A stretch of 64,000 nt of DNA from Mesostigma viride (Eukaryota; Streptophyta; Mesostigmatophyceae; Mesostigmatales; Mesostigmataceae): positions 1,266,104 to 1,330,103 of the forward strand of contig RPFO01000016.1 of the NCBI GenBank assembly GCA_009746045.1. The letters are read 5' to 3'. A model generated the notes under the pieces. That model was not told the DNA's origin. It ran no database searches and was given only the letters and a program-made list of their open reading frames with translations. This document shows, piece by piece, positions 1,007 through 31,513 of this stretch; the first letter of the stretch is position 1; every line of letters starts with the position of its first letter. The position numbers and the translations under genes were made by a program.

Positions 1007-1534
1007 TTATTCCTCCAATGAAGCGAGGAGGGATGCGCGGATGGCGGCCATGCGAATCTCGTACGGGGTCATCGCGACAGGGGGCGGGGGTGGCGGTGGA
1101 AGCTGGCGGGTCTTGATCGGGGGTGGCGGGGTGTCCGGCTCTGAATCCCTTGGTTTTCGCCCACGTCTCGGTTTCGGCGTGTCGGCGGGTGTCGAGGCGA
1201 CGCTGTCTTCCGCAAGAAGGCGTTCGATGCGCGATTTGTTTCGAGCTTCTTGCAGCTCGAGTTCGACGAGCCTTTGCCGCTGGATTTCAAGTTCCTTTGC
1301 GAGGACCTTTCGCTTCGTTATCTCTGCCTCCTTTTCCTCGTTTCGTCTCTTCTCCCTCTCTGCCTTTGAGCGCTGTTGATAGATTCGTATCTTGTCACGT
1401 AGGGCCTTTTTCTGTTCGTCGTTCAACGGCTGTCCTTTTCGAATCGTCCTGACCAGGTCCACCTGCTCTTCCCGCGTCTCGGCGAAGGTCTCGTCCTGGA
1501 AGCTCGTTGGGGTCTCTGAAGCCTCAGAGGCCAT
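1007..1534 (-). CDS. Basic coiled-coil protein of the endogenous PLV (unknown function)
   Basis: This 175-aa ORF is not a family I recognise. Residues about 30-105 form a long, highly charged helix (runs of R, K, E and Q with heptad-like spacing), which predicts a coiled coil. It is followed by a Pro-rich, Lys/Arg-rich linker with runs of prolines at about residues 135-150. The gene is the only clear minus-strand member of the viral block and is divergent from the fibre-like gene at 1559, with only 24 bp between the two start codons. Its position in the structural block suggests a virion or assembly role, which is inference. The shadow frames on the plus strand are Arg/Ser-rich and lack any domain. 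Confidence 0.6.
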   Translation of the reverse strand: MASEASETPTSFQDETFAETREEQVDLVRTIRKGQPLNDEQKKALRDKIRIYQQRSKAEREKRRNEEKEAEITKRKVLAKELEIQRQRLVELELQEARNKSRIERLLAEDSVASTPADTPKPRRGRKPRDSEPDTPPPPIKTRQLPPPPPPPVAMTPYEIRMAAIRASLLASLEE

Positions 1535-1558
1535 GTTTATATTCTACGTAGATAATAA
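1535..1558. promoter_or_regulatory. 24-bp AT-rich divergent promoter candidate
   Basis: Two viral genes start back to back across this 24-bp gap. It contains TTTATATTCTA and is strongly AT-rich. Similar short gaps with an A/T run followed by TCTA precede other genes in the block (11550, 19549, 20876). A shared viral promoter is inferred and untested. Confidence 0.4.
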
Positions 1559-2769
1559 ATGGTCGTGCTTACAACCCTGAGCAGACCGACAAACCTCGCC
1601 ACCGGGTTAACGCTCGACCCCGAAATGGAGGAGCGTGTTTCTACTGTCGAAACGGACATCGACGGGCTTGAGACTAGCGTGTCGTCGCTTCTGAGCAGGT
1701 CGCACCCATTTGATGAGTCGCTTGTCGTCGACGGATTCAAAATTTTTTATCCAAGCCAACCAACAAATTTGCGACTCGGAGACGATTACGATGACGAGAC
1801 CGCGAGTGACCCATCGGAACTCGCCTACAACCTCGTCGTGAACGGGTATTCGTATTTCAAAGAAGGCACTACGACAGTCGACGATCTCACTCTAAACGAA
1901 CCTCACCTTACGGCGAAAGTGGGAGCAAACCAGTACCACGTCTTCGACTTCAGCCCCGACACGCTGCTAGACCCTGGCGGCAGAGTCCTGACCCGCGCTC
2001 AACTGGACTACCTTTTCGACCAACACGGAGTAGGCACCACGTCGATAACTAATTTGAACGGGGATTTCGTCCTTCATCTCGAAGACGGGACGACCGTGTC
2101 GCACCAAAACGCGTTCAGCGTCATCAACGACCAGGATGTGCGAGTTCAACTTCCCTATAACGTTACTAAAGGCGACGCGAGTGGGATTTGTAAATATACG
2201 TATCGCGACTATCATGCCACCCAATCGGCCACGGGTGATAACGTCGTGGATGGAACAGTGGGGTATCCGTATTTTTCCGATGCGTTCTTTGGACTCGGCG
2301 GATCTCGATTCAACGGCCTCCCTCTCCGCGTGGAGTTGTTGTCTTTCTCCACGATCCGCGACGACAACCGCCGCCTTCCACTAACTGGGAGATCGTTCAC
2401 CATCACGCGTACCTACTCGCCGCTCACGGATTGGAGAATGGGACCGATTGAACCTTTGAACGCACTCCATTGGAGCACCACTCCCGCCAGCGCTACATGG
2501 GAGGTAGTGGAGGGTACGACCCTCAAACAGGGCATTAAGATGACGACCCCGTTCGCGTACCAACGCAAACTCCCCCTCAGATGGTACATGAATTCCACAC
2601 AGCTCACGCCGACCACCCCTACGATCGGCGGAGTCTCCCTCTCGCAAAACGGAGGACTACGCGGGGAAGACGCCGTAATCACCGCGCCAGTCGCGGCAGA
2701 TAGTAACAAGTATTTGAACTACGAGATAGATGTATACAACGACTCCACCCTTACACTAGGAAGTCGGGT

Positions 2770-3170
2770 TCTGAGATTTTTCTCAGGATCCTGAGATTTC
2801 CTGAGATTTTTCTCAGGATTCCTGAGATTTTCTCAGGATTTCCTGAGATTTCCTGATTTTTTCTTGGGATTTCAGGAGAAATCCTGAGAAACCCTGAGAC
2901 TTTTCTCAGGATTCCTGATTTATATCAGGACTTCCTCTTGAGAATCTTGAGAAGTGCCTGAGATGCGTCTCGCGAAACACTGAGAAACACTGAGATTCGT
3001 AAAAAAATCCTGAGAAATCCTGAGATCCTGAGAAAACCCGCTGAATCAGAAAAAATCAGGAAAATCAGGACACTTAACAGCACAAAAAATCAGGAAAATC
3101 AGGACACTTAGCATGGCACAAAAAATCAGGAAAATCAGGACACTGAGCATGACACTTGAGAACTCTCAAG
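2770..3170. repeat. Left subterminal CTGAGATT/CTCAGGA repeat array
   Basis: The sequence is a dense run of CCTGAGATTT and its complement TCTCAGGA, often paired as short palindromes, followed by three AAAATCAGGAAAATCAGGACACTT-like units near 3050-3150. It mirrors the array at the other end of the element and probably provides transposase binding sites, by analogy with CACTA elements. Confidence 0.7.
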
Positions 3171-3317
3171 TGCATGAAGACAGGACACTTATGCAATATA
3201 TGTGGATGCAGAAATGATGCAGTTGACACACATGTTCATTGGAAATAAATAAATATAAGTGTGACAAGCACACAACAAGTTACATCAATCCATCATTACA
3301 TTATATTAGGAATATAA

Positions 3318-4313
3318 TCAATCCCACTCCTCATCAGTGTATGCAGCACTGTCAGAGTCCGCATAATTTACTACCACACGTTGCCTCTCACTTCTCCTTT
3401 GTGTGGGAATGCATGCCTCACCGTCGCTGCTCAGCGACAAATCACTAGCAATGTCATCAGGGCTTGATGCGCTGCCACTAGCCGCTGCCATGGACTTGCC
3501 AGCAATGCTCTTGCCACGCGAGCGGTTTGGTGCAGCGGCTGTGTGTGTTTCTACCAATGTGTCCGCAGTGCGCTTGCCACGCGAGCGGCTTGGTGCAGTG
3601 GTTGCTTGTGGTTCTACCAATGTGCCAACAGTGCGCTTGCCACGTGAGCGATTAGGTGCAGTGGTTGCTTGTGGCTCCGCAGCCATGCGTGCAGTGGTTG
3701 CTTGTGGATCTATGGGTGCAGTGCGATTACCTTGTGAACGACCTCGTGTTGTCATGTCTCTTCGCTTAACACACAGTGTCACCTTGCGCTGCAGGTTCAT
3801 ATCAGCATACACGTCTGTGGTTCTCAGCTGAGCACCTGCAGCACGGGATAATACATGCTGGGCTGCACTACACGTTTCCTTTACCATTTGCCACGGCAAT
3901 TTACAGTGCACGATGGCTATCTCAGGTGCATACTCTGGATCAACTACAAAACCAACTGAACATACACTCCCGGGAAGGACTAAAGCATCCTGCTTGGGCG
4001 CTCGCTCCCCTAAAGGTATAAGCGTCAATCCCTCTAAAGGGAGCTCTTTCACAGAACCGACATCAAACAGAGCGACCTTTAAAAGAACTTGCCTACTCCA
4101 TCCTTCCGTCGGGGCACGGAGGAAACTATGCAGAATGTGTGTGATGCGGCCATACCTAACCCCCTCTTTACCATAAACCATTACTCCCGAGTTGCGATGG
4201 CGAACAGTTTGTCGAAGGTCGGCGACTGCAGTTCGGTAATTGCTGCCATTGATGTGGATTGAGTCATGCTCGTCACAAGCAGGCTCCATGCCACACACCG
4301 CCGCCGTAATCAT
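3318..4313 (-). CDS. Transposon-borne ORF, unknown, with Arg/Ser repeat tail
   Basis: This 331-aa ORF lies inside the CACTA-like element and its ATG is at 4313. The first 165 residues look like a small globular beta domain of the kind often found at the C-terminus of large transposon proteins in fungi and algae (a VMVYGKEGVRYGRI segment, then VALFDVG). The second half holds about four imperfect repeats of the form P(N/S)RSRGKR followed by Thr/Ala-rich linkers. It ends in an acidic tail DEEWD. There is no catalytic motif, so it may be the last exon of a larger spliced protein or an accessory protein. I do not assign a function. Confidence 0.45.
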   Translation of the reverse strand: MITAAVCGMEPACDEHDSIHINGSNYRTAVADLRQTVRHRNSGVMVYGKEGVRYGRITHILHSFLRAPTEGWSRQVLLKVALFDVGSVKELPLEGLTLIPLGERAPKQDALVLPGSVCSVGFVVDPEYAPEIAIVHCKLPWQMVKETCSAAQHVLSRAAGAQLRTTDVYADMNLQRKVTLCVKRRDMTTRGRSQGNRTAPIDPQATTARMAAEPQATTAPNRSRGKRTVGTLVEPQATTAPSRSRGKRTADTLVETHTAAAPNRSRGKSIAGKSMAAASGSASSPDDIASDLSLSSDGEACIPTQRRSERQRVVVNYADSDSAAYTDEEWD

Positions 4314-7300
4314 CGTGGGGAGGCGTGGCTCCTGGTTTTGCGTGATCCATTGCTTTCTATCTGAGCAAGTGACTTGACTAGTGCGAGACCCAAAGTGGAA
4401 ATGCCGTGTCTATTCCGGCCTAACATGGCTGATGAAGGCGTTTATGGAATGGTGCGGCTAGGTGCAGGGTTGTGTTGCCTACCATGGCTGCTGAAGGCGT
4501 TCATGGGTGCGGCTAGGTGCAAGGTCGCGTTGCCTAATCGCAACCTTTCTAAATTTTTCGCTCGTTGGACCAACGGTCTACCAGGTAACGGTTAAGAGAG
4601 GTAGGGCGCGAAGTTGAAAGTTTGGAACGGCACTGTCGTCATGCGGCTATTTCACGGCATCATAACGGCCTTTATTTCAGTTATGTTCAGTTCAGTTTAT
4701 TCCCACGCCGGTTCCCTAGCCTTGCCCGTACCGGCTTCGGAATAAACGGATGCCGGAACCGTATCCTTGTTCCAATTTTTAACAGGCAGGTACTACTTAT
4801 ATAAAGCCCGAACTAAGAGCTCTTTTGTAGAATGTTCTCACTGCCTAATTGCTTTAGTGACTTTGCGTTAATAATTGTCGGCTGTCAGTCTGTCAGCCAA
4901 CAATCAGAAATCGTTGTCGCACTTTATAACCTGCTCCAATGGTTGTCCGGCAAAGGCAGGACCAAGCGTTTTCTAGGGTCTGGCAGGACGGCGGTTTTTT
5001 AAATGCCTGTGGCTTTCATTGGTGAATACTAGTTACTGTACCTGTAAATTTATCGGCAGTTTGCGGCTCCGACCGTTCTAAAAGGCTTTGAGACAAGTAG
5101 TAACCAGTGGAAAGGTAAGATGTCATGACAATACGGAAGATCGCTTGGCTGGAATCACTCGAGACATTCCGCCTGCCGCTGGCTACGGATGTGACCTAGT
5201 CGCAATCTTTTTTTTTGCGCAAATTCAAAAAAACGCGTCTGACGTAGCCCTAGCCGTTGTTCGCAGTCAAGTCAGTGCTGGGGCTAGCGGGCAGTGAGGG
5301 CACATACACGCTAGCTCGAGCGATGGGGCAACCGATTTCCATACGTAACCAATGAATGCAACCACCGAATAACAAGCGCTGCAGGTGTGGCAGCAGGGGT
5401 GGCAGCGAGAACCGCACTAGAAGCGGTTCTAGTAGCGACGACATGTGAGTGACATAAGTAACGGAGAATAAACAGAGCGAGATTCTGGAGCTATCCAAAA
5501 CCTACAAGGCCGTCATGGACAGGCTGTGATCGAAGAGGAATGGAGCCGGGAAAATGAGCAACTGCGTAGCTGAGCAAGGATACTTATGAGAATTGCTTGG
5601 CAGGTTGCATTGGAAGGCCCATAGACCGCAAAAGCGGCATTCTGAGCAAAAGCTGGTTTCTTAGTATAGCATGAACTCTGAATACTTGATTTCTTGTCCT
5701 CTTACATGCGTGGTCAATTTCATGAAGATGACCATCATGAAGTACCGTCCTTGGGCATTTTTGTGCGTACATGCCCGTTTGTTGTCAAAGCACGTCCATG
5801 CAGACCTGAATCCCATGCAAACCCCAAGCGTCAATTGCGACTATCTTTGCAAAGGAAAAGCATCTAGACGTGTTCTGATGAAGCCAGTAAGGTCAAATGT
5901 TTCATGGTGCTTCCTCATAAGCCACATAGTAGATTAGATACTAACTTGGTTGGTCCATGCGTGAGTATGTGCATGTTGTCATCAGTTTGCTACCTACTTT
6001 TTAATTACCTTGCCTACTTACTAGCTTTGTTATTGAAGGTATTTTCCTAATTTTGCACTGGAATTCATTCCTTACATCACTACTATTCTTTCTCCCCTTT
6101 GCAATCGCAACAGGAGGGACGGAATGTTATCTTCTCCGCGGTCATGAGGTTGTCCCTTCTGCGTGGTAAGTGTCATAAAGTTGATTAGTCCCTTGGTCCC
6201 TCACTTGCTCCTTGCTTCCTTGCATGCTTGCTTGCTGAGTTCGATAAACCCCTTGCTTCCTTGCATGCTTGTTTCCGTCTTTGCGTGCTTGCTTGCTTCT
6301 TTGCGTGGTTGCTTTCTTCCTTGATTAGGCCCTTGCTTGGTTGTTTAGCCGCTTGCTGAATTTGATTAGTTCCTTGCTTTATTCCCTTGCTTCCTTGCAT
6401 GCGTGCTTCCTGAATGTAATTAGTCCCTTGCTTCCTTTCTTAGTCCCATGCTTCCTTTGTAAGCCACTCTTCCTCGCATGCTTGCTGAATTTAATTAATG
6501 CCTTGCTTCCTTTGATATGACCTTGCCTACTTGGTTAGGCCGTTCCTTCCCTGCATGCTTGACCACTTGCTGAATGGAATCAGTCCCCTGATTCCTTTGT
6601 TAGGCCCTTGCTTCCTTTGTTAGCCCCTCTTCCTTGCATGCTTGCAATTGCTTGCTTGCTGAATCTAATCAGTCCCTTGCTTCCTTTGTTACGCCCTTGC
6701 TTCCTTATTTAGCCACTCTCGTCCTTGCGCGCATGTACGCTTGCTTGCTGAATTCAATTAGTCCCTTGCCCTGAAGAAATTTAGTCTAGTTACCCTGGAG
6801 CTTCACAGTTAATAAACGTGTTTTCCCTTTTTCAATGCATCGGTCATATGCAATGTCGTGGTTTCTTGGTCTTGCACATCTCAATAATGGCGGTGCTAGG
6901 CTTTCACTTGGGTCACCCTTTCAATGTTTTGTACCAGTCAGAAGTATCTTTTTTTATGCCGAGCATGATGTTGTTTGCTATGCCTTTGGTCTGGTTAGGT
7001 GTACATGTGCACATGCTGCAGCCCAGCGTTTCTAATCATGGTCCTGTTTAATGCCTTTTTTCCCCCTTCCTGGTTTATGCGTGCAGGTAAATGTGCAACG
7101 AAGCACAGTTTGGCAGAGTATATGAAGAACCAAATGATCTACAAGATCTGCCAAACGATGAAGAAACAATCCTCTTTTTGTTGTGATTTATTTTTTGCCT
7201 ATGAATAAAAGATTTTTTAAATAATATTTATCAATGTAATAAATGCACTGATTGTGAGTCATGCCCCTGTTGTAATCATCTTGCATTGTCGTATTTCTGT

Positions 7301-7339
7301 TGGTCCCTGATAACACCATTTTTTTGTCCCAGAATGGCT
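4314..7339. other. Internal CACTA-like element sequence, no gene recognised
   Basis: I find no supportable coding region. The stretch 4390-4540 repeats a short motif (GTGCGGCTAGGTGCA and GTTGCCTA). From about 6170 to 6770 there is a degenerate tandem run of CCCTTGCTTCC and TTGCATGCTTGC units, including the word TTAGTCCCTTGC many times. Remaining ORFs are short and have no domain character. Confidence 0.5.
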
Positions 7340-7722
7340 GGAGAATTCGCCTGTGCATGTTCTTGATTTTCTTGAGATTCTACTCGTTTTTTTGTCCTGA
7401 GATTTTCTTGAGATTCTACTCGTTTTTTTGTCCTGAGATTGTCCTGAGATTGTCCTGAGATTTTGTCCTGAGATTTTCACTACAAAGTCAAAATCTCAAG
7501 ACCTGAGTTTTTCACCAGAAATCTCAGGACCCGAGGTGTGCACTTACCAGATTTTGTGAAGACGAAAAAAATCAGGAAAAATCAGGGCAATCTCAGGAAA
7601 AATCTCAGGAAATCTCAAGACGATCTCAAGACAATCTCAAGATATCTCAGGATTTCTCAGGATTTCTCAGGATTTCTCAAAAAAAACTCAGGACGATATC
7701 AAGAAATATCAGGACGAATTTT
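7340..7722. repeat. Right subterminal CTGAGATT/CTCAGGA repeat array
   Basis: Repeats of TCCTGAGATT and CTCAGGATTTCTCAGGAT in both orientations extend up to the right terminal inverted repeat at 7725-7738. This matches the array at 2770-3170. Confidence 0.7.
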
Positions 7723-8602
7723 TTCCGACTTCCTAGTGTACCGCATGTAGCACCCAAAAGGGGGGGATGTTGATATGCGTTTCGAAAATGAGCCAGCTTC
7801 ACCCCGGCATCCGGACTCCGAGTTCGTACATTTCGTACCTCAATCCTGTAAAAATCTCGATTAACGGAGTGTACGCAGACCATGGCGTTGGATGGGGGAA
7901 GTCGTTGAATCCTCTCACCGGTTTTCATCTGATGGCGAACGGGGTGTCTCAAGCGGTGTTGGACGGGACGTTGACGACAACGACGTTCCAAAACCCATCC
8001 GAAGGCGATGATGTAGAACTCAGATATAGGATTATAACCGCAAAGGACTCGCCAAACCTGTCAGGAGAGACCGTGGAGATATATGGGCCCGCTACGACGC
8101 TCCATTCTCTAGAATCATTCTCGCGCCACTCCGTGACCACGCTGCAAACAGAAGCTTCGAAATACTACTTTGAAGGGTCTCCCGAAAAATTCTTTTTGGT
8201 AAAAACAGCCACTCCGGCACCAAGCAAATGTGTTGTTTTTTCAGAGCAGCTCATAGACGGCCCATTTCTATTGTGTTTTCAGCTATATTTGGGCAGCAAC
8301 GATGCTTTCGTCTCGTTCGCGGAAAATACTATGTCTTTGACGAATAAATATCATCCCGCAACGACGGATGCCCATCAGAACTGGAGAAATGCGGCTACGA
8401 CGCATTGGGGTATGCTGGGTATTAATCTCCACCATAGTGACTATGCACTCGACCTGTTTGACAATCTGAAGTCGAAGGTTCGATACACGTTAAACTCATC
8501 ATGGAGACAACAAAACAGCTATACTGGGTGGCATTTCGAAGAAAGTCGGATGGGAAGGTGGAGCGTTATATATCCAAAACAACTCCTCAAGAACTTAGTG
8601 AC

Positions 8603-11552
8603 ATGACTAAAATCTCAAACTCGTCCGGTATATTTACAACCACTCCTACAGACATTCTTGACCCGTACATTCCGATGCCCCTCCGACCAGTCTTCCACTT
8701 AAGCGGAGAGTACCACGGCGCGCACGTCTGGCCCATTAAAGACGACCTCCAAGACATAGAGTTCGACTCTCTAAAAACCAACAACCCATCCGGAGCGTAC
8801 ACAGCCGTCGGTGACGTGTTGGAGCTGCGTCACAGGTCCACCTCGTCGAGGAATTGTAGCATTTTTGGGAAATACAGCGTAACAAAACCAGTGCCAGGTG
8901 TTGCAAATACTTGGTTCAAGGAGCTAACACTCACGAATGAGAGTGTCATACGCACGGTTGTTAACCCCTAAATGGTCTGAGATCCTGCCGATAAATCGGC
9001 TGGATCTTCACAATTTTGCAAACCAGATGCCATCCAACCTACCCATATCCAATGGCCGTCCTTGGGGGCCAAGCATGTCCATGAGTTGCCCTTCGGGTTG
9101 GTATATCACAACCTCACATATATGCAGGGTAGGCCATGTTTAACTGCCGTCAAAGTCAGGGGGGTCAAGACGCGCGTTTTCATTTTTGGTAGAATGTGCA
9201 TTTTGAATTATGTTATAAGAGCTAGGCACCTACCACTTCAGGGATGATAAACAATTAGTTGCTGAACAGTTTGAGCCATTGGGGTCATCATTTGGGTGGG
9301 TATACCAGCAGTTGCACCCAGTACAGCCCATAGGGGTACCGTTGGTAAAAAGCAACCAAGGGAGTAGGGGTGGGCATACTACCTCCTAATATGGCCACCA
9401 ACCATGCCAAACAATACATTTCCCTTCCACAATGATGGGGAAACATAACTGCATCATCACACTGCCCTTACATGGCACCTATGTGCAGGTGCCACCTTGT
9501 CCATGCACGTAGGTAACGTGGTACGGACACCCTACGCAAGGCATGCATTCTAGGAGGCAGCCACCAACAAACTAGTGGTGTTGAGCCTATTTCAGCCTGC
9601 CCTAGCAAGGATAAACTAGGCCTAAGCTGCTATAGCTTGCCAGGTGATGGCCAGCACACCTGGTGGCACATGCTGTCAATGGGAAGCTTTTACTCACCAG
9701 TTACGTGCTTGATGATGCCACAGAGACCAGCCAACTGCCTCACACTCATGCAATATGTGTATGGGAAATGTATAACAAACATATATGGAGGTATTCAAAC
9801 CCATACAGCCTCTAAAACTTATCACCATCACCCTGTGGCAGGTCAACTGACTGAGGGAAGCATCTAAGAAGGGTGTTTTAGAAAGGGGCCAGGCCAGGGT
9901 CAAGAAAGAGCATGAATAGTGCAAAAAGAATGTGCTACACAAGCTAGAACGTATATATAAACGTCAAACATCGATAGGAAAACGATGATTAAGCTTTACC
10001 AGGCATGGATGGCGTTACCTTGGCCCAGGCGGTGGCCGCAAAATGGCGCATTTCGGCACACCAAAGTTGTGCAGCATGGTCGCTGGATTCGGCGATTTCT
10101 GGCCACCCTTGCACGTTTACGACTACTATGTATCATAAAAAGTACAAAGAAACCGATATATCCTTTAAAATACGCCGGAAAGGTATTGCTGTCAACGTTT
10201 CTATCGTCCGGCCTGATCGCAGTTTTTTCCAGCAAGAACGCTGCCGACACCTATCAAATGGCATTCCCGCGAACCAAAAATTGGCCTGTATGATCTTTAG
10301 GACGTATAAAATCAATACCCTAAGTTTGGCCAGAAATATCGAACGCAAACGTAAATGCCATGCGTGGGCGCAAGCCGCCATGGCCAGGTCGTCGTTTTCC
10401 GGAATGCACGTTGTACGTGAAAAAGTACCCTGACCCCTTGTACTTTGACCGGCCAGAACACCTCTATAACTTTGTCAAAAGTATGCAAACCCTAGTACCA
10501 TGCTGTGAAGAATTTTATAAACTTTCGATCTTCTCAGCTAAACTTTTCCTAATTCTCAATAGATTTCGCGGCATCTGGTCCCCCGAGAAGGGGCCGATGC
10601 ATCGGCTGGAACTCGATTTTTGGCGGAAAATCGGCAGCAAGACCATTTAGGGGTTAAGTGCCCGGATGTTCAATACGGCGTGCAAATGAACGAATATACT
10701 GCCAAAATATATGGGATTCTACCAGCTCGTCAGTCGGTAAGGAAGTTTTATGTAAGACTTGGATTTTCAAACACCAAGTTGAGCAATGATCCGTTGCTTA
10801 TCAGCGTAGTCGTCGGAGAATCGTGGACTGGTGGTTTTTCTACAACGACAATATCAAAATCCTCGTCGTACGTTGACATAACCTGTGATCATATTTCACT
10901 GGTTGATCCTCCAGTTACTGGTATGATCCATTTGGCGACCGTGACGTTCCAAGTATTAGATCCAACAGTATCTGGCCCGAGCCCGCTTTTATTTGCTTCT
11001 AGCCTAAGCTACTATTATGGATCAAGCCTGTCGTCGATCGGCGGCAATCACGGGATGGACGTGGCCCTGTATGAAGATGTCCGAGAGACTCGACGTATAT
11101 CCCATACAATATTGGAAGCAGATTCTTTGGTCGGTCTGAGGCAGCCCATATACGACTACCCGGTTCCGCAATTTTGGCACGGCGCCCCCGTGGCCGTGAT
11201 GTCTTTCCACGACCCGGCAACGCAAACGGAACTAACTCTTCCGACCGCGTTGACCAATATCCTTGTCAGGTTAACATTTGATAACAACCCACCAACGATT
11301 CTCGACATATCAAACCCATATCGCTTAACGGCTAGCGGCCTGTCCGTCTGGCCGGAAAACGTTATAATTGGCAGCAATTGGAATGTTGTTTCGGGGTACG
11401 AAGAGGACGAAGGGGTGTTTGAAATCGCCTTGAGGATTCCTCGCATCACCACTGACACGTCAACAATCATAGCACTGTCTACGGCGTTTTGTAAGTCACG
11501 CGCTGGAAAAATGGCCGCGTCGACTAACAAGACCCTCACTTGGACGCTATAA
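8603..11552 (+). pseudogene. Second PLV structural-type gene, split by a piggyBac-like element
   Basis: I choose ATG 8603 because it overlaps the stop of the previous gene as ATGA. An upstream ATG at 8501 in the same frame would give a 106-nt overlap. The left part runs to 8964 and the right part from 10658 to 11552. With the element and one TTAA ignored, the parts total 1257 nt, exactly 419 codons, and the frame is open through the junction (right-hand residues begin CPDVQYG). The protein is beta-rich with many Ser, Thr and Asn residues and no transmembrane segment. No named family is recognised. Its position after the fibre-like gene and before the zinc-finger and penton genes suggests a virion component. 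The gene is broken as it stands. Confidence 0.6.
8965..10653. mobile_element. Non-autonomous piggyBac-like element (TTAA target)
   Basis: The 1689-bp insert is flanked by TTAA at 8961-8964 and 10654-10657. Its ends are CCCCTAAATGGTCT and the complement. Subterminal segments also mirror each other imperfectly (CTGCCGATAAATCGGCTGG on the left; CCGATGCATCGGCTGG and AAATCGGCAGC on the right). The TTAA target and CC-starting ends are the signature of the piggyBac superfamily. No transposase ORF is present, so it would need a partner in trans. Confidence 0.75.
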
Positions 11553-18526: not shown

Positions 18527-18599
18527 GGTTGATCTGGGTCTGGGTGTTGTCTCTGGGGTAGTCAGATGAATGTCTCTGCTCCTCAAATGCAGGGTAGGC

Positions 18600-19307: not shown

Positions 19308-19579
19308 CCGGGCACGTCGCGGGAGAGGTTATCTCGAAAATCGGAGCCGGGGCGCGAGCCGCGAAACAGGTCGCGGGCATCGTCGATTCAGCGCTCGGGC
19401 ACGTCCCCTCTACCATGATCGCGAAGAGTACGCTCCTCGGGAAAGCGTACTCGGCCGCGAACACGGGGCTGAGTGCCCTATCGAATCTCGAGAGAAGAGT
19501 GGATGGGGCGAAAGTAAAAAATCCTATACTAGGCCAGCTCCTTCAGTAAAAATATCTAACTCGAGTGTATACACCATCG

Positions 19580-20875: not shown

Positions 20876-20903
20876 AAAATATATATGTGTCTAGTGACAA
20901 ACG

Positions 20904-21074
20904 ATGGACTACTTTCGAGACCCTAGCATCACAGCTAATCCGTTTAACAGGTTGAAGTTGATTTTTGACATCCCAGAAATGGCAGATTCTGGTTTGTCCA
21001 TGACAGTTCCCGTAAGGCAAGCACTTCCCCTTCTCCCCACCTTCAAATACCCGCTACCAAACTCCAAAAAATAG
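20904..21074 (+). CDS. 56-aa PLV protein of unknown function
   Basis: This short ORF starts with MDYFRDPSITANPFNR and ends in a Lys-rich tail. It follows the capsid gene after a 28-bp AT-rich gap. There is no recognisable domain. It is retained as a gene because of its position, tight spacing and uninterrupted frame between two convincing viral genes. It could be a small capsid or assembly peptide. Confidence 0.45.
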   Translation: MDYFRDPSITANPFNRLKLIFDIPEMADSGLSMTVPVRQALPLLPTFKYPLPNSKK

Positions 21075-21100
21075 TGTGACGATGATATTATATTAGCCGC

Positions 21101-23578
21101 ATGTCGTTTGATTATGGTATTTGTCCTGCTTTGATTCGCAAGAAGCGTAAACCGGTAAGGACAGCGCCGTCAACCACGCTCACAACCACACACGGACTGT
21201 ATCCTAGCGCGGTACCAATTACAGTGACAGCAACATTCAGCAAACCAGTCACTGGGTTCACCTTGGGTGATATCGTTGTCATTAATGGTACTGCATCTGG
21301 TTTAACGGGTAGCGGCGCCTCTTACACATTTTCTGTGACTCCAGCTGTAGCTTATTCGCTGACAACAGTCAGTGTTGGAGGTAACACAGCAATCAGCGTG
21401 CTGGGAACCGGCAACACCGCAGCAACTCCGCTAGTCTTCACGTATTCGCCACCTCCAACGGTAACCCTCGCGACGACCGCTGGCTTTACGCCATCCTTAT
21501 CGCCCGTGGACGTGACAGCCACGTTCAACAGCATCAAGTTTCGTTTAAGTGGCCAGCCGGAGCGGCTGCTTAGGTTTTAGCGGGCAAGTGTTCGAAGCGC
21601 GTCATTGGTGAATTACTAGGGAACTTGGGTTTCCCCGCGAAACTCCAACCGCACGTTCAGATTTCCAAATCTCAAGTAAAGTTGGGCGCAACTTTCTGAA
21701 CGGGGGCAGTTGACGAGCAGCATTCCTCCGGACGAATGAATTGCGTTCCATACTTGCGCAAAATTTTGAAAGGTAGCTTGCGTGCAGCCCTACTAAAATT
21801 TGCGCGCACGTTCAGATTTCCAAATCTCAAGTAAATTTCGGCGGAACATTCTGAACGGGGGTAGTTGGCGGGCAGCGTTCCTCCAGACGAATGAAATGCG
21901 TTCCATACTAGCGCAAAATTTTGAAAGGTAGCTTGCGTGCAGCCCTACTAAAATTTGCGCGAAGTGTGGGACTGAAAATTTGTAACGGAAACTTTTTGGT
22001 AGTTGCCGTCACTTCCTCTTGTGCAAACGTGTGGGAGTGAAAATTCGTAACGGAAACGTTTTGGTAGTTGCCGTCACTTCATTTTGCGCGAGTGTTGGGC
22101 TGAAAATTCGTAACGGAAACTTTTTGGTAGTTGGCGTCACTTCCTTTGGTTCGACTGAAAATTCGCTGAAATTCGCTGAATTCGTACCGTAGCCTAATTT
22201 TTAGTACCTCGAAGTGACGGGGCACCTAAAAATTTGCCCACAAGTACACTTGGCAGCGCGCTCACTGGGAAAAATTGTACAGCCGCTCCGGCGGGCCACT
22301 TGAACGAATTGTAATGGGTCGGTGACGGGGTTCGCGTTGAGCGACATCACCGTGACCAACGGGACCGCCGCCAACCTTACCGGCAGCGGGGCGTCGTACG
22401 CCTTCCAAGTGACGCCAACCATCGCCAACGCCGCCACGAACGTTAGCGTCGGAGCCGGAACTGTCGTGGACGCATCGACAGGGAACGCCAACGCGGCCTC
22501 TAACACGCTGTCGTTCACTTATTCGGCAAATCCGACGGTGACTCTTGCGTCCGGAACCCCGACGGGTGCTATTTACCCAGTCACGGCCACTTTTAGCATG
22601 TCGGTCATCGGTTTCGCGTTGGGCGACATCGCCGTCACCAACGGAACCGTGTCCAACTTGCTGGGAAGCGGCGCCACGTACACATTCGATGTGACCCCTA
22701 CCATGTCGGACTTTGTGACGACGGTAAGCGTGGGCGCGGGCACCGTGACGAGCGCAACGTCAGGGCTTGGAAATGCATCATCCAACACGCTGTCATTCAC
22801 GTACTATTACAACCCGGCAACGGATCCCGCAATGTTCGCGTGGTACGATCCGTCCGACAGCGCCACGGTGTTCAGCGACACGTCCGGCACAACCCAGCAA
22901 AACACGACAGATGGAAACGTGATGCGAGTGAACGACAAGGGGCCGAACGGGTACCACGTTACCCAGGCAACTTCCACCAAGTGTCCTACACTGGACACGG
23001 CGGAGTTGAACTCGAAACGGTCCCTCCGTTTTATCAACTCGCGGTCTGGCTTGCTAGGGTCCGTGAACACTTTCTGGGGCGCGATCGGGAACAGTGCGAG
23101 CATCCTCCTAGTTGCCAAACAACTAACGACTGCGACATATCCATCAATGGGGCCGGGGACGGGCATCAGAGGGTACATGCTTGGATCGACGGATGGCAGC
23201 GGTTATTTAATGGCTTATCAATCAGAGGCACAGATTGTCCTCTTATTCGCTCCCAACGGTGTATACGAAACCGTCAGCAACAGGGCTCAGTTCTTTGACA
23301 CCAAGGCACACGTCATGGCGATTTCATGCAACAGCAGTACAAACGCATTTCTCACCCGCTTCGACGGAAGAGCTGGGTATAATAGAGTGGGATCGGATCC
23401 TACAACTGGTTCGGGACTTCTCTCTACTGGAGGAGACTCATCCAACGCGAGTCGTGCCTTTGACGGGTGGATTGGCGAGATCCTTATCTACAACACAGCC
23501 AAGACGTCAGCGGAACTTGAACGGATCCGCGGGTATCTTGTTGCCAAGTGGGGCACTCCCGCCGCCATCCCAGCGTAG
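21101..23578 (+). pseudogene. Ig-like repeat and LamG-like surface protein gene, split by a MITE
   Basis: The left part (21101 to about 21530) starts MSFDYGICPALIRKKRK and has a first bacterial-type Ig-like repeat (VTATFSKPVTGFTLGDI, then GTASGLTGSG) and the start of a second. After a roughly 0.8-kb MITE the frame resumes (VTGFALSDITVTNG), followed by a third repeat. From about 22806 comes a C-terminal domain resembling the LamG/concanavalin-like lectin fold (DPAMFAWYDPSDSATVF to ELERIRGYLVAKWG). Such proteins are common as phage and large-virus surface adhesins. A host-binding tail or fibre role is inferred. A basic N-terminus could anchor it to the capsid. It is broken as it stands. Confidence 0.7.
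21530..22316. mobile_element. MITE with 30-bp inverted ends, inside the Ig-like gene
   Basis: The ends are inverted copies: TTTAAGTGGCCAGCCGGAGC near 21544-21563 and its near-complement GCTCCGGCGGGCCACTTGAA near 22284-22303, flanked by TTCGTT/AACGAA. Inside, a segment of about 170 bp with GTTCAGATTTCCAAATCTCA is present twice and a segment of about 70 bp with GTAACGGAAAC and TTTTTGGTAGTTG is present three times. Exact borders and the target duplication could not be fixed from this window. Confidence 0.65.
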
Positions 23579-24291
23579 AACTATTATCTCTTCCAATTTG
23601 TAATAAAGCAATGGAATACCCCACCTATTACCAAATAGTGCTTGATTCCAATGCCTCTGAAAACGTGATTGACTCCACCACCGGGTTACGTCAATTTAGA
23701 ATCAAACCAGACCCGAGGGCGCCCATCATTGACAGTACATGGCGTGGTGGTGTGCATTATGCCTACCACATCAATCCGGCGCAGCGCCGGGCTGTTCCCC
23801 GGTAATTCCCGCGCGAAAGTTGACGAAATTCGGTGCGCGCGTGCAATGTTGACTGAAATTCGGTGTGCAAGGCTATGGTAGCTGAAAATTTATTGCTCAC
23901 GGAATACGAAGCCATTGTGTACCGGATTTCGCTTGTTCGAACGGCATTGTCATAGGGAAAAATAATATTCACAAAAAAACTCGCGAAACGCTGCTGTATT
24001 GGGTGTGAACGAGGACAAGCACGCAGTTGGCGCAGTGTTTGCTCGCCGTCCGACCAGACCCGTGCATCTTTAAGGTAAGGTCTCGTTGCCCAAACTACTT
24101 GACGGTGGAAACGAACACGTTCCACCAGTTCCTTACATCATTTCAAAGAAACCCAGCGTAGGATTTCCCTTAATTTTGCGTTTCCGATTTTTACGCCCCT
24201 TCCGCGAAAAAGTGAGAATTATAGGAGCGCTGACAGGGGCAACACTGCATGTCGTGCTTTTAATCGCTTTTACGTCTTTTCTTGCAGCTAT

Positions 24292-24459
24292 ATGACTTCG
24301 CTTGGGCGCAGCAACATCGCCCGGTGTTTATCCTGCGGGCGGGGCTTGCTGGCCCCGTCCGGAGTGTGCTCGGGGTGCGGGAAAAACCACAGCTACTGGT
24401 TTATAACGTCGACAACCCCCCATTTTCTGGTCATTAACCGGCGTATTCTTGTGGTTTAA
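24292..24459 (+). CDS. Possible 55-aa zinc-ribbon peptide
   Basis: The short ORF has two CxxC pairs (CLSC and CSGC) spaced 14 residues apart, a layout that can bind one zinc ion. A splice-acceptor-like TTTTCTTGCAG sits directly upstream (24280-24290), so it may be an exon. It lies inside the repeat block that splits the viral gene. Its origin is unknown, and it may be a chance ORF. Confidence 0.25.
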   Translation: MTSLGRSNIARCLSCGRGLLAPSGVCSGCGKNHSYWFITSTTPHFLVINRRILVV

Positions 24460-24775
24460 GCTTCCGGCGACGGGCGAAAAGAGCTCTTACCAATGATGAC
24501 GGCATGCTCTGGGGAGGCGTTCCGAGAAGGACTGGGGCGGGCAGGCAAATTTACACGCGACAGTGCCCGCACGTCGCCTGCGCACCCCGGCGTACAAGGC
24601 AAAGCGCAGTGTTTCCCTCCTGGACGGCCCATCGCTGCCTTTGCCGGGCGGCATGTTGGGGAGGCGGCTCCTTCTTCCTTTCTTACCGCCCGTTTCATAG
24701 TTCATACCCCGTGAGTTTCCCAACGGAGGCGTGTTAATGATGAGCGGCTGCATGCATGAATGAACGGGTGTATGA

Positions 24776-25437
24776 ATGAGGGAGGGGGGGGGAGGGAGGG
24801 AGGGAGGGAGGGAGGGAGGGAGGGAGGGAGGGAGGGACTCAGGGAGGGAGGGAGGGAGGGAGGGAGGGAGGGAGGGAGGGAGGGAGGGAGGGGGAGGGAG
24901 GGAGGGAGGGAGGGAGGGAGGGAGGGAGGGAGGGAGGGAGGGAGGGAGGGAGGGAGGGAGGGAGGGAGGGAGGGAGGGAGGAGGGAGGGAGGGAGGAGGG
25001 AGGGAGGGAGGGAGGAGGGAGGGAGGGAGGGAGGGAGGGAGGGAGGGAGGGAGGGAGGGAGGGAGGGAGGGAGGGAGGGAGGGAGGGAGGGAGGGAGGGA
25101 GGGAGGGAGGGAGGGAGGGAGGAGGGAGGGAGGGAGGGAGGGAGGGAGGGAGGAGGGAGGGAGGGAGGGAGGGAGGAGGGAGGGAGGGAGGGAGGAGGGA
25201 GGGAGGAGGGAGGGAGGGAGGGAGGGAGGAGGGAGGGAGGGAGGGAGGGAGGGAGGGAGGGAGGGAGGGAGGGAGGGAGGGAGGGAGGGAGGGAGGGAGG
25301 GAGGGAGGGAGGAGGGAGGGAGGGAGGGAGGGAGGGAGGGAGGGAGGGAGGAGGGAGGGAGGGAGGGAGGGAGGGAGGGAGGGAGGGAGGGAGGGAGGGA
25401 GGGAGGGAGGGAGGGAGGGAGGGAGGGAGGGAGGGTA
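24776..25437. repeat. (GGGA)n polypurine array, about 660 bp
   Basis: An almost pure run of GGGA on the plus strand, with occasional GGA or GGGGA interruptions and a single ACTC block at 24837-24840. It reads open in several frames but codes for nothing. Such tracts can form G-quadruplex or triplex structures. Confidence 0.95.
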
Positions 25438-25443
25438 TGTATG

Positions 25444-25622
<179 letters not shown>

Positions 25623-26188
25623 ACGTGTATGCATGGGTGGGTGGATACATGTGTATGTGTGTGTGGGTGGGTGGGTAAGGGATCGACGTGTGTGTGTGTA
25701 TGTGTGTGTGTGTGTGTGCTTCTCTGCTTAGGCGTTGGAGCACACGCATGCACTGGAGGAAGGGGGTGATGAAAACCCAGACCAACTGTCGCACCCACCC
25801 CTCCACCTTCACCAAGCGTAAGGCCAAGCGTGCCATGGGGGTAGGGTAGCGGACGCAAGTCACCAACGTCAGGGTGCTCACCAGGCTGGTGGATGAGAAG
25901 ATGGGGGGCAGGCCCCTGTCAGATGCAGAGAAGAAGAAAAGGAAAAGGATGCAGCAGGGCCGTGAGAACGTGCCCCCGGGTGTGGCATTAGCCACTATAT
26001 AGCTAGCTAGCTGGCTAGAGGTGTGTTATTAATGCATTGTACTATAGGCATGTGCCCCCAAGTATGCCTTCCTGCATTGTAAATATGATGCATAATGTAA
26101 TGATGTGTTGTTTGGAACCTTCTGTACACCAAGGTGGAATGATTGCCATGAAACCCTTGTAAGAACAATAGAAAGCTGCTTTTTCTGT

Positions 26189-26905
26189 GGTATTTATGCT
26201 AGCATCTGTCACCAATTTGTCACCCAACCAGCCTGAAGCTTTGTGGGCAGGCTGCATGGGATGTGTTTCGAACATGTGCCAAGTTCTAGCTCCAACTGAG
26301 TCCACTTGGGTCTTATATATGTGCAAACCTATGATGAAATACTTGGAAAACACTGAAAAACTGCATTTGGGGGGTATTTATGCTAGCATTTGTCACCAAT
26401 TTGTCATCCAACCAGCCTGAAACTTTGTGGGCATGCTGCATGGGATGTGTTTAAAACATGTGCAAAGTTCCAGGCCCAACTGAGTTCATTTGGTGTCATT
26501 ATGTATGCATATGTGTGATAAAACCCTTAAAAAACCATGAAAAACTGCATTTTTTGGGTATTTATGCTAGCATTTGTCACCAATTTGTCATCCAACCAGC
26601 CTGAAACTTTGTGGGCATGCTGCATGGGATGTGTTTAGAACATGTGCAAAGTTCCAGGCCCAACGGAGTTCATTTGGTGTCATTATGTATGCATATGTGT
26701 GATAAAACCCTTAAAAAACCATGAAAAACTGCATTTTTTGGGTATTTATGCTAGCATTTGTCACCAATTTGTCATCCAACCAGCCTGAAACTTTGTGGGC
26801 ATGCTGCATGGGATGTGTTTAGAACATGTGCAAAGTTCCAGGCCCAACTGAGTTCATTTGATGTCATTATATATGCATACATGCCAGAAAGTGCTGAAAA
26901 TACGG
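26189..26905. repeat. 184-bp satellite, four tandem copies
   Basis: The phrase TATTTATGCTAGCAT starts at 26191, 26375, 26559 and 26743, giving an exact 184-bp period. Each unit contains TTTGTCACCAATTTGTCA and TGCATGGGATGTGTTT. The fourth copy is cut at about 26900 by the DIRS-like element. Related sequence (TTGCTAGCAAATGTCACC) appears on the other side of that element at 30054. Confidence 0.9.
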
Positions 26906-26906
26906 T

Positions 26907-29900
26907 ATTCTATTCCCACTATTACCAATCCACCAACATTTGATTAAAACAATAAGTGGGCAATTACAGAACCCATGAGTGAGCCTGCCACGCTGCACCC
27001 ATTTCATGATTGATTGTAGTTCTCGTTACCCTAGAAACAAACACAAGAAGAGGGAGGGAGGGCGGGACAAGAAAAAGAGACCTAGAACATCGTGCAAATG
27101 GCACTTTAGGGCGGCGTAGCCCGGGCTCGCCTCATGAGCCGTCAGCAACAGTAACTTAATTGCTACTTAACTTAACGAACTAGAAATGGCCATACAAAAC
27201 TGGCCAACTAATTCTAACTCATGGAACCGGTCCAGCCCAAGGCCCACCGTCCCGTAGTACCACTCACATAGCGGCGTTTATTCTCATCTGTTATAAAGAA
27301 ACTACGTTCAGAGAACACCGATTCTATTCCCACTATTACCAATCCACCAACATTTGATTAAAACAATAAGTGGGCAATTACAGAACCCATGAGTGAGCCT
27401 GCCACGCTGCACCCATTTCATGATTGATTGTAGTTCTCGTTACCCAACCCCCCTTTCCTGGTGCTTTATCTCCAAAGCTCCGCCAACCACTTTCGCTCAG
27501 TGGCTCCCGAGGCTGCCCTGCCGCAACGGTCACGACCATTACAATCGCCGGCGGCTGTAGCGAGCCTCATGCACGATAACCCTTTGCAGGGCCCCCCCCA
27601 GCCTTCCACCCTCGGCCAGTAAAAGAGGGTGTTGAATGTGCACGCAAAGACAAGGAAGAAGACGCCTCGTTTAACGATCACGGACCTCCCTCAAAGGCCA
27701 GTGCCGCCCTAACGTGACGACAACTTGTAGGACGTCACCCGATGCCACCATATCTCGATTACTGTCAACGTTGTCACCTGGGGGAGTAACTTTCCATATT
27801 TCAGGTTTTAGTTGATGAGCAGGCTCTCATCACACACCCCAGCGGCCGATAAAGCGCAAGCGCAACTGGGCCGGCCAAAATATTTGGTCCTGCCCGGCCC
27901 AGGTCCGTCTGTTAAACTGGCCCCTTAAGTCTCGGTCTGAATCGAAATATTGCATAATTCCGGAATTCGTCCCCACCACATTCCCGAGACCTCACGCACC
28001 CATAAGAGCGGATGCTGGTAAATATTTTTCTACTTACGCGAGGGCCGACAGACTTGTCGTCCATCACAATGCCCACTAAAAGTAACCCGACCACCCTTCC
28101 TTCGGCAGTCAGCAGTCAGGAACTGCAAGCCTGCTGCGACATTCCGCAGCAAAGCGGTAGGCACTGCAGCGTGGCACGGAAATCTTACTCATGGCTTCAG
28201 AGTTCCGTACAGGTGCCACGCGCAGGCAAACGCGAAGTATTTTATAGTCTCTCGTCGGCCAAGAACCCAGCTGCGGGGAGAAAACCGACGAGGGTAATTT
28301 CAATTTCTTTTTCACAGTCACGTGACTGTTCAAGCTATGTCAGTCACGCGCCATCTCTAATCGGCCACCGCCAGCCAAAAGGCTGACGCGATTAGGGCAG
28401 CATTAACCCATAGTCCGCTGACCCATTTGTGGCACTTTTATACCCCTGAAAATGAAAAAAATCATAACTTACAGGCCACAACTCCAAATACCCCCAACCA
28501 AGATGCTAGGAGTATCTACACTTCAAGGGCTTTCAGAATATGCAATAATACCTTGGCTTTATCAAAGCATTTGGATGATAGCTCCAGTCAAAGCTGGCCA
28601 AAAGACGATCTTTTTTCCCCAAGGAAAAGTCTACCCCCCCCTAACTTCCCAGGGAGGGCAGGGAATCTCAATACCAACATTGGACAACTTAGTTGGATAG
28701 TCCAATGGGGGTTTCCTTGGGTCAGACCACCCGGATAACCCATTACCCCTATATAACGTGCTCATACATGTGTGTGGGTTACGCGCGTGAAAACAGCTAT
28801 CTATGACATGCAGCACAATAATGCATTATAACAAGCTATCAAAGGCTGCCAAAAGTGCTGGAATACAAACACGTTGCCTACCTGCACTGACGGAGTGGTA
28901 TACTCCAGAGAAATGCCCAAAACTGGGCACTTTCAGGGCTAATACCACTCTTTACAACAGGCATGGAACTTGCTGAAATATGCATGGATAGAATCGTCAT
29001 TCATAATGCATGGGATACGTATTCCGCTGCAAACAACACGCAAATACGTTGTCGTACCTGGCTCGTTCATGCCCTACCTGGATTCCGCTGGCCGGGACCC
29101 TCATATCTCACACATACTGATGCTCCACAGGCAAAGGCCGCCATAGCCACATACTTCATGATCCACCATGGCTACCAGGTCGATGTTCCGTGCAAAGATG
29201 GCCACTAAACTAGTCCGCATTCTCAGCAAACGCTGCAGCTGACGTCCCTTACCCAAACTGGATGCCCGGGCTGGCGCAGATTGCCCGGCCATAGGGAGAA
29301 AATCGACCTATGACAAGCTATGACTCATCTGGAACTGACGACCAGGAAAGTCATATTTTCCTACCTGTATTTTCCTAACCCTATAAATCTGGCGGTGCCT
29401 GACCTACGAAAATCATGCATCGTCATTCTGAGCAACATTCTGAACCGTTTCAAGCCGTGAGACGCAAAAATTTCGTGACAGCGGCACGTTGTCAGCCATA
29501 TCTCATTACGCGCGCGCGCGAGCGAAATTTTCCCGCCAAAGTCACGTGATACATTCTCAATGCACGTTGTAATTACCAGGCTATGGCGAATATTACCCCC
29601 AAACCTATGCATCACCTTCGTCCCTAAGTGTTCCCGGACCCACCGGACCACTGACATCCGTCACAGGTGGCGCGGCGCTCACGGCGCGGCGCGAAATTCG
29701 ACCGTTAGTCAAACTACCCGACAGGTCGGGTAGTTTACGGACTATGGGTTAAATTTCTTGTAATCCGCCATACCCATACCCCATACATCCGATTACAAGA
29801 AAAAGAGACCTAGAACATCGTGCAAATGGCACTTTAGGGCGGCGTAGCCCGGGCTCGCCTCATGAGCCGTCAGCAACAGTAACTTAATTGCTACTTAACT

Positions 29901-30051
29901 TAACGAACTAGAAATGGCCATACAAAACTGGCCAACTAATTCTAACTCATGGAACCGGTCCAGCCCAAGGCCCACCGTCCCGTAGTACCACTCACATAGC
30001 GGCGTTCATTCTCATCTGTTATAAAGAAACTACGTTCAGAGAACACCGATT
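26907..30051 (-). mobile_element. Non-autonomous DIRS/PAT-like element with split direct repeats (copy I)
   Basis: On the plus strand the layout is B1 (26907-27031), A2 (27067-27323), B2 (27321-27445), interior, A1 (29795-30051). The two B copies are 125 bp and the two A copies 257 bp, and they look identical apart from one or two bases. Read on the minus strand this is A1, interior, B1-A2-B2, the split-direct-repeat structure known for PAT, Ngaro and kangaroo type tyrosine-recombinase retroelements. No target duplication is visible. The interior lacks recognisable RT, RNase H or tyrosine recombinase genes and holds a later piggyBac-like insertion. The class call rests on architecture. Confidence 0.6.
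28407..29748. mobile_element. Second non-autonomous piggyBac-like element
   Basis: TTAA at 28403-28406 and 29749-29752 flanks a 1342-bp insert with 11-bp inverted ends CCCATAGTCCG. An 81-codon ORF inside (28963-29208) has no recognisable domain. The element is nested in DIRS-like copy I. Confidence 0.7.
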
Positions 30052-30614
30052 TTTTGCTAGCAAATGTCACCATGTTACCATGGTGCCGACTCCCAAAAAA
30101 TTTTTTGACCACATGGCATCATAAGATATCTGATTAGGTACCTTGGTGCCAAATTTGAGGCCAAACTGACTATTAGCCTATCTTGAAATAATTACCAGGG
30201 AACCAAAACGCGTTTTTGGATTGATGTGTACGTTGACGCAGTACCTTTTGATGAGGACCATGCTATTGTCGGGCTTGTTTCCCCGAGTTTCTCCGGTGGT
30301 GATGAGCATAACCAACAGGATTGCATTGTTTTATGCAACGAGACTATCATGGGTGGATCAGACGGGGACATCCTTTCTTACGCCATGATCAACGAACACG
30401 CGTTTTTTAACCTGAAGAACGCACACCTGTTCAGAAACGGAGGACATATTACGGTAGGAGCGTCGTACATTGACAGACTTGACGGAAACGAGACTCAATT
30501 CCCCCCGTTGCAGACGGACGGTTTTTTGTGCATCCTACGTTTTGAAAAGATTCGCGGGTTCAATAAGTGTAATTGTCACGGCAAGTAATTTCTGTGCATT
30601 ATACGACAATATGT

Positions 30615-30788
30615 ATGGGTGGGTGCCTTGGAAAATTCACACTGGTGGATACCCTGGAGAATTCGTTCAGGCGTATGAGAAACGACCCCGAGTACGCGCG
30701 AGCTTACGAGTCCGTTTACCTGAATTCACGTCCCAGAACTCGCCACGTGGTAGAGGCCACTCTGGACTTGCATCACTGCAAATTTTAG
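30615..30788 (+). CDS. 57-aa PLV protein with an N-terminal Met-Gly
   Basis: I prefer the ATG at 30615 (MGGCLGKFTLVDTLENSF). Gly at position 2 and Cys at position 4 resemble an N-myristoylation/palmitoylation signal, suggesting membrane association. The C-terminal half is charged. The overlapping frame from 30611 is less protein-like. Function is unknown. It lies 26 bp after the preceding viral fragment. Confidence 0.4.
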   Translation: MGGCLGKFTLVDTLENSFRRMRNDPEYARAYESVYLNSRPRTRHVVEATLDLHHCKF

Positions 30789-30937
30789 CCAAGTTCGACA
30801 CTTGTGCAAGTCTCGCCACCTTCGCGCCCTGTCCGGGCCGTGCCAGCAGACGTAACGGACCTTTGCACACGGTGCACAAATAGGCAAAAACACGTGCAGG
30901 TCACGCATCTCACGTTGCAAGCCCTCTGCCGGTAGCC

Positions 30938-31513
30938 ATGGCTTCCCGAAACGCAGGGCCCTGCGAGAAGGCGTTGGCCACGCTTGGAAAATACCTCGAT
31001 AGTCTCGAGGACGGCCAGACAAAGATATCGGACCAGCTCGCATACCTGACGCATCAGGTCTCCCTTTTGTCCGGGGCACCCGGTGCTGTTGGAGGCACCG
31101 GACCTACCTGCGAGGTTCTCAAGATTCACGACGCTGGATATGACGATGTCGACCGCAAGACGCCCAAAATTTGCGTCGAGTGGGTCTACGAGAGGAACGC
31201 GACAAAGCCGAGGAAGGTCGAGGACCGATGTGAGTGGATTCGCCTCGACCAAGCCGACGGATGCGTTAAGATGGTTGACGAATTCGTCAATGGCTTCTCC
31301 AAGTCCAAGCGCCAGCCGGGCATTTCCCCCGTTGCGCTCTACAAGGCATGGGAGGAGACAAAGAAGGGTTTCGAGGACGCAAAGACCGCCACTTCCCATG
31401 GCAGGAAGAGGAACCGCGAGGAAGTGTCAAGCTCCCGTGGCCTTAACGACAAGAGGAAGTCCGCCTCGAACGTTGTGAAGAGCCCGACTGGAAACTCCAA
31501 GGACGGGGAGTAG
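30938..31513 (+). CDS. 191-aa PLV-type protein of unknown function
   Basis: The ORF is intact. Residues 1-45 form a predicted coiled coil (ALATLGKYLDSLEDGQTK). The middle part (about 58-140) is a mixed globular region with CVEWVYERNATKPRK and WIRLDQADG. The end is a Lys/Arg/Ser-rich tail with a nuclear-localisation-like GRKRNREE. It closes the run of co-oriented viral genes. The codon use and compact spacing match them. No family is recognised. Confidence 0.5.
   Translation: MASRNAGPCEKALATLGKYLDSLEDGQTKISDQLAYLTHQVSLLSGAPGAVGGTGPTCEVLKIHDAGYDDVDRKTPKICVEWVYERNATKPRKVEDRCEWIRLDQADGCVKMVDEFVNGFSKSKRQPGISPVALYKAWEETKKGFEDAKTATSHGRKRNREEVSSSRGLNDKRKSASNVVKSPTGNSKDGE

Follow-up and report, generated by a model that had tools for sequence, protein, structure and literature searches.

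Can a virus that resides in many copies in the chromosomes of its host keep one capsid and vary the protein by which it attaches to cells? This question is raised by a stretch of 64,000 nucleotides from the streptophyte alga Mesostigma viride (assembly GCA_009746045.1, contig RPFO01000016.1, positions 1,266,104 to 1,330,103; hereafter the window), in which a preliminary description had seen the structural gene block of an endogenous polinton-like virus (PLV). The predicted capsid fold, inverted repeats, genes to the left of the window and copy number support this description. We consider it probable that the block represents the structural arm of a single copy of a multi-copy integrated virus, a PLV by its predicted capsid fold. 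The left arm of this copy is found immediately to the left of the window, and the immunoglobulin (Ig)/laminin G (LamG) gene of the virus has likely been exchanged among copies.

Endogenous PLVs of protists and algae are already known. In its available text, the survey of Bellas et al. (2023, PMC10120064) describes elements of 15–30 kb with inverted repeats, a major capsid protein (MCP) and other PLV genes, present as many related copies per genome and including streptophyte MCPs; in some of them a primase-helicase replaces the protein-primed family B DNA polymerase (pPolB).

Results

Probable exchange of the Ig/LamG gene between viral copies

The Ig/LamG gene follows the predicted MCP gene and is interrupted in the window. 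Its N-terminal part (21101..21580, plus strand) encodes a leader of type A and the first Ig repeat (Big_12, 38.8 bits), and the remainder (22322..23578, plus strand) encodes an Ig-like stalk (Big_12, 52 bits) and a C-terminal head. Four Big_12 stretches were found in the copy C1546 and three in the other adhesins compared. The name Ig/LamG adhesin, which comes from the preliminary description, holds for the Ig repeats, but the Laminin_G_3 match of the head is below threshold and occurs only in the allele of C1535. This copy of the element on another contig, picked by its MCP, served as the reference for defining inserts and uninterrupted genes. By analogy, the Ig/LamG protein is likely an attachment fibre.

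The nucleotide sequences downstream of the MCP gene were compared with those of the 19 other best copies. Nine of them are similar to the window for up to 202 bp, the length of the backbone spacer (20876..21077), and similarity is lost just before the Ig/LamG gene; the MCPs of these nine are 96–98% (seven copies) or 94% (two copies) identical to that of the window. The other ten (MCP approximately 94%) remain alike into the adhesin. The end of the spacer thus forms the left border of an exchanged cassette. On the right, the exchanged block extends into a 254-aa gene 3' of the adhesin (first 51 codons at 23611..23763; decayed remainder at 30259..30757; both plus strand), and the DNA from 30554 onward, the right border, is again 95% identical to C1535.

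Leader type A is present in 11 copies and type B in nine, a distribution for which the MCP tree requires three changes, two or more of them by well-supported branches. Monophyly of type A on this tree was rejected (p-AU 3.9e-29, with the bootstrap not settled). Whole-genome lists yielded 28 MCP-adhesin pairs, 48 of the 76 adhesin rows used having no MCP row within 3 kb; in 16 of these pairs the MCP is 97–99% identical to that of the window, and their adhesins range from 49 to 100% identity to that of C1535.

The adhesins of eight copies (28 pairs) were compared in detail, and synonymous divergence (dS) was calculated for MCP, stalk and head. Between the window and C1535, dS is 0.08 for the MCP and 1.73 for the stalk, and the head is saturated. 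The opposite was found for the window and C1480 (MCP dS 3.0, adhesin dS 0.25 and 0.41) and for C1048 and C954, whose MCPs are 79% identical (dS 2.14) and whose adhesins are 98% identical (dS 0.02 and 0.11). In a further pair, C1107 and C1535, MCP and stalk agree (96% at the DNA level), the heads share 45% protein identity, and the last 51 bp are again 96% identical. Nucleotide profiles accordingly display stepwise breakpoints just before the adhesin gene and at the border between stalk and head. As a control, we used the 1.1 kb upstream of the MCP gene, which tracks the MCP with a Spearman coefficient of 0.79, compared with 0.33 for the adhesin start (136 pairs from 17 copies, including three with interrupted adhesins, L011, L014 and L021). 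Judged from these sequences, the Ig/LamG gene has likely been exchanged between copies by recombination, and it behaves as a two-part cassette of which either the whole adhesin or the head alone is replaced.

Three other explanations for the mismatch between capsid and adhesin were considered. Fast evolution in place under positive selection would fit the high nonsynonymous divergence (dN) of heads of unlike types, which reaches 0.83, but it can yield neither near-identical adhesins beside diverged capsids, as in C1048 and C954 or in the window and C1480, nor abrupt nucleotide breakpoints, and we give it almost no credence. That near-identical repeats were misjoined during assembly is a natural concern in a repetitive genome of 440 Mb in 2243 contigs. 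Such an artefact is nevertheless very improbable here: C1048 and C954 lack a near-identical capsid stretch at which the assembler could have switched, the adhesin types recur on several contigs, and the sequence on either side of the C1107 head matches C1535 at 96% rather than 100%. The third explanation, gene conversion among the integrated copies within the host nucleus and without a viral stage, deserves more attention, as many copies reside within one genome. It should, however, also spread over the adjoining MCP gene and spacer, which stay more lineage-specific, and the purifying selection on the MCP described below suggests a stage in which the capsid is used; we regard conversion as unlikely, and prefer recombination that involves viruses.

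Capsid genes, copy number and selection

The open reading frames (ORFs) of the preliminary description are all present at their coordinates. It had assigned two of them to the capsid and looked to profile searches for support, but Pfam, PHROGs and PDB sequence searches with both proteins gave no useful match; the PDB sequence matches, 15 of 16 of them to designed repeat proteins, were taken as chance. Evidence came from modelled structures instead. All 50 PDB rows listed for the 431-aa product of the open frame at 19580..20875 (plus strand) are double-jelly-roll proteins, and BFVD matches reach an E-value of 3e-20. The model is of low confidence (predicted local distance difference test, pLDDT, 50), and its first roll matches well. 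The protein is predicted from this fold to be a double-jelly-roll MCP, in agreement with the earlier assignment and with the capsid protein expected of a PLV. The 288-aa protein encoded at 12317..13183 (plus strand) is a candidate penton (minor capsid) protein: it has fold matches to minor capsid or penton proteins of PLVs and giant viruses, but its low-confidence model (pLDDT 41) does not show the jelly roll itself.

Matches to the MCP ORF number at least 102 at no fewer than 97 places in the genome, and 88 of the 102 are free of stop codons; the genome count is a lower bound, 97 of 542 first-look candidates having been scored. Because of this recurrence, mostly without stops, the ORF is not a chance one. 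The family consists of two clades, at 85–100% and 66–73% identity. Averaged over the 190 pairs formed by the 20 best-scoring copies, dN is 0.0094, dS 0.157 and dN/dS 0.06, although dN is biased downward by the choice of copies by protein score. Relative to C1535, dN/dS is equally low for the penton gene (0.05), a 175-aa gene of the left arm (0.09) and the first piece of a 1103-aa gene (0.09), and higher for a 114-aa gene (0.24), a zinc-finger gene (0.33) and the first part of a 426-aa gene (0.35). For the C-terminal part of the ATPase of the left arm, the simple proportions of nonsynonymous and synonymous differences from C1535 are 0.020 and 0.107. Purifying selection on the MCP points to a stage in which the capsid is used.

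Relatives of the MCP from a named organism were found only among Mesostigma viride proteins in EukProt (59% identity at 97% query coverage and 66% at 56%). Scans of IMG/VR with the MCP, two MCP alignments and the ATPase confirmed no relative, and phage records likewise gave none. One MCP relative (P0001) and one penton relative (P0010) each lie on a contig of length 7708 from one source, perhaps the same contig, which suggests that this genome may not be the only one to hold a virus of this kind. The contig of the window carries one more MCP match of the family, which is split (C1768:1601886-1603172) and lies approximately 316 kb to the right.

The genome also houses a second endogenous virus family, with at least 150 MCP matches of the nucleocytoplasmic large DNA virus (NCLDV) type (150 of 507 candidates scored; L001–L008 and others). 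A contig often carries two or three of these in a span of some 20 kb, in near-identical sets, and both of the two tested carry Capsid_NCLDV and Capsid_N. The window MCP has no Pfam match to Capsid_NCLDV (PF04451), and none of the listed matches, at least 150 in number, falls inside the window. The NCLDV-type family might act as a helper or a rival of the PLVs here.

Ends and left arm of the element

The preliminary description had confined the block to positions 1007 to 31513. The ends lie further out, in inverted repeats; examined for a target-site duplication of the whole element, they fall in AT-rich TAATTA repeats. The right inverted repeat (31784..32347) is built of 111-bp tandem units and is 99% identical to the left one, which is found, interrupted by an insert, at positions 557–2840 of L029, the 10 kb directly left of the window, and thus up to 9.4 kb outside it. 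End to end the element spans 41,791 bp; subtracting seven inserts leaves approximately 18.4 kb, so that size and terminal inverted repeats fit the 15–30 kb of PLVs.

It had also been noted that replication and packaging genes are missing from the window. Indeed, none of the window proteins scanned with Pfam belongs to the packaging or replication set of the element. Extension to the left, which had been suggested to find an ATPase, a protease and a polymerase, was successful for part of this set. The minus strand of L029 carries genes for an ATPase (292 aa), a 164-aa protein, a 426-aa protein and a replicase. The ATPase (L029:8383-9261) contains a Walker A-like stretch and matches Pox_A32 (E 4.1e-4, 20.3 bits, below the cut-off of 22.8) and, also with a weak score, a phage terminase profile (E 2.3e-4); on these weak scores we count it as a predicted A32-like packaging ATPase, as found in PLVs. 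The replicase, scored in the C1535 copy, matches Herpes_ori_bp (72 bits) and CyRepA1 (86.5 bits, below its cut-off of 200). It is predicted to be a replicative helicase of the origin-binding type, and its helicase part would take the place that pPolB or a primase-helicase has in PLVs; a primase part is suggested by eye. The 426-aa protein has no profile match in searches including Pfam, PHROGs and NCBIfam, the last of which was also negative for the 1103-aa and 254-aa proteins. By eye it shows a recombinase-like motif, which makes it at most a candidate for the integrase of the element. No cysteine protease was recognized among the scanned proteins, several of which lack any family, and neither pPolB nor an rve integrase of the element itself among the scanned ORFs.

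These results also bear on a possible classification of the element as Maverick/Polinton transposon or virophage, which share with it the plan of capsid, penton, ATPase and inverted repeats. The only rve domain recognized belongs to a nested Copia element, which speaks against a Maverick/Polinton, and among the fold matches of MCP and penton are Tetraselmis viridis virus S1 and MELD virus, though mavirus is matched as well. One observation weighs against the capsid assignment on which the PLV reading rests, namely that the second jelly roll of the MCP is matched only at a root-mean-square deviation of 11 Å or more. Taken together, we consider a Maverick/Polinton or virophage improbable and retain a PLV.

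Genes and inserts of the window copy

The structural series lies on the plus strand, as described; the gene for the 175-aa protein at 1007..1534, to which no function was assigned, lies on the minus strand and is a member of the left arm. The fibre-like proteins of the preliminary description correspond to four ORFs (1559-2794, 7767-8606, 8501-8971 and 10686-11552). These are pieces of the 1103-aa gene, which is a single ORF without a family in C1535 and is represented in the window by 1559..2754, 7739..8964 and 10653..11552 (all plus strand); since 7767-8606 and 8501-8971 belong to the same gene, their overlap is a frame break (near 8521). Then follow, on the plus strand, genes for a 166-aa protein with one C2H2-like finger (11575..12075; zf-C2H2 19.8 bits, the Pfam cut-off of 25.2 not being reached) and for a 114-aa protein (12079..12423) with no family above cut-off, whose position is kept in the copy L033. 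The tight packing described earlier is real in this part, with 22 bp between 11552 and 11575, 3 bp between 12075 and 12079, and an overlap of 107 bp between 12079-12423 and the penton gene, but elsewhere the block is cut by inserts. A 118-aa gene is split into 13173..13293 and 19313..19546 (plus strand). Ahead of the right repeat lies a 191-aa ORF (30938..31513, plus strand), for which no family was found; it had no match in the 36 element loci compared, most of which do not reach the right end.

Compared with C1535, the viral block is interrupted at about 2754-7739, 8964-10653, 13293-19313, 21580-22313 and 23763-30259. The first insert (5.0 kb, 2755..7738) is bounded on each side by TA and has inverted ends of 16 bp; the second (1.7 kb, 8965..10652) is bounded by TTAA and has inverted ends of 18 bp. 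An insert of approximately 1.7 kb with TTAA at both ends and 19-bp inverted arms starts 0.73 kb left of the window (L029:9268 to window 1003; right part at 1..998) and stands between the ATPase gene and the 175-aa gene. The viral copy contains three TTAA-ended inserts in all (L029:714-2443, L029:9268 to window 1003, and window 8961-10657), with inverted arms of 18–21 bp. They look piggyBac-like, and the viral copy resembles a landing pad for such elements. A Copia long terminal repeat retrotransposon (13297..19309, minus strand; gag 17648-18601, pol 14089-17628, RVT_2 173 bits), splits the 118-aa gene and separates the penton gene from the MCP gene. Its 692-bp terminal direct repeats are 100% identical, and CCGGG, a duplication read from the junctions, flanks it on both sides; the identical repeats indicate that it inserted recently, when the viral copy was already old. 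An insert of approximately 0.73 kb with tandem repeats (21581..22313) lies within the adhesin gene, and approximately 6.5 kb of inserted and repetitive DNA (23764..30258) inside the 254-aa gene.

The window copy is broken, with a replicase split over several frames and interruptions in the 1103-aa, 118-aa, adhesin and 254-aa genes. Assembly errors may have caused some of the frame breaks, as argued for such elements in the available text of Bellas et al. (PMC10120064).

Long tandem arrays, with units of 10 bp, of 57 bp and of the CACGCACA type, occupy 43688-44622, 45136-48356 and 51897-52539 in the right half of the window. Exon-like ORFs at 57.3–62.9 kb belong to a gene for F1 ATP synthase beta, the middle ORF being the only one searched for identity; an initial assignment as V-ATPase was dropped, as this middle part matches F1 ATP synthase beta.

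Discussion

In size range, inverted repeats, gene set and multi-copy state, the element resembles the PLVs in the available text of Bellas et al. (PMC10120064). The consulted parts of three studies already establish endogenous PLV numbers, nested retrotransposons and module exchange (PMC10120064, PMC12220804, PMC8547959). What looks new is the likely exchange of adhesins among viral copies. As far as its main text is available, PMC10120064 does not treat attachment-gene exchange and mentions neither fibre, receptor, adhesin nor Mesostigma. The available text on cryptophyte PLVs (PMC12220804) reports expansions, tyrosine recombinase (YREC) or rve integrases, Prim-S2H replicases, replacement of replicases through recombination, nested retrotransposons, and Laminin_G_3 fibres thought to bind host cells. 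It describes domain combinations, not exchange between sister copies, and the fibre-like protein studied here differs in its Big_12-type Ig repeats and its unlike heads on near-identical backbones. In the EMALE virophages of Cafeteria, the accessible part of PMC8547959 indicates probable exchange of an entire morphogenesis module (EMALE02), whereas in the present element the likely exchange concerns one attachment gene or its head alone. No title on attachment-gene exchange in PLVs was among the top-ranked literature matches listed, in a search outside which most subscription papers lie, and a search on Mesostigma viride with polinton-like or endogenous viruses returned no paper on the topic.

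How might such exchange work? The conserved adhesin leader (GxCPAL) would anchor the protein to the capsid, presumably on the penton, the Ig repeats would form a shaft, and the variable C-terminal domain would be a head that binds carbohydrates. Co-resident or co-infecting viruses, or integrated copies, would recombine and thereby replace the whole adhesin or the head only; a capsid type could in this way gain new heads, with purifying selection still acting on the capsid. We tentatively suggest, as a possibility that we do not favour strongly, that attachment heads are stored in the integrated copies as in a common library: a virus would keep its one capsid backbone and take a whole adhesin or a head from divergent sister viruses in the same chromosomes. 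This would be a eukaryotic counterpart of tail-fibre switching in bacteriophages, whose host-recognition genes are, according to the available text of PMC10579305, likewise common to unlike backbones; unlike these phages, the virus considered here infects eukaryotes and is resident in host chromosomes.

If the exchange is real, near-identical viruses could bind different surfaces, and MCP trees need not predict attachment in PLVs. With its scores of copies, two clades of capsids and probably recombined heads, this genome offers a test system for how PLVs choose their cells, in which one could ask if binding is determined by the head and if active viruses receive variation from the integrated copies.

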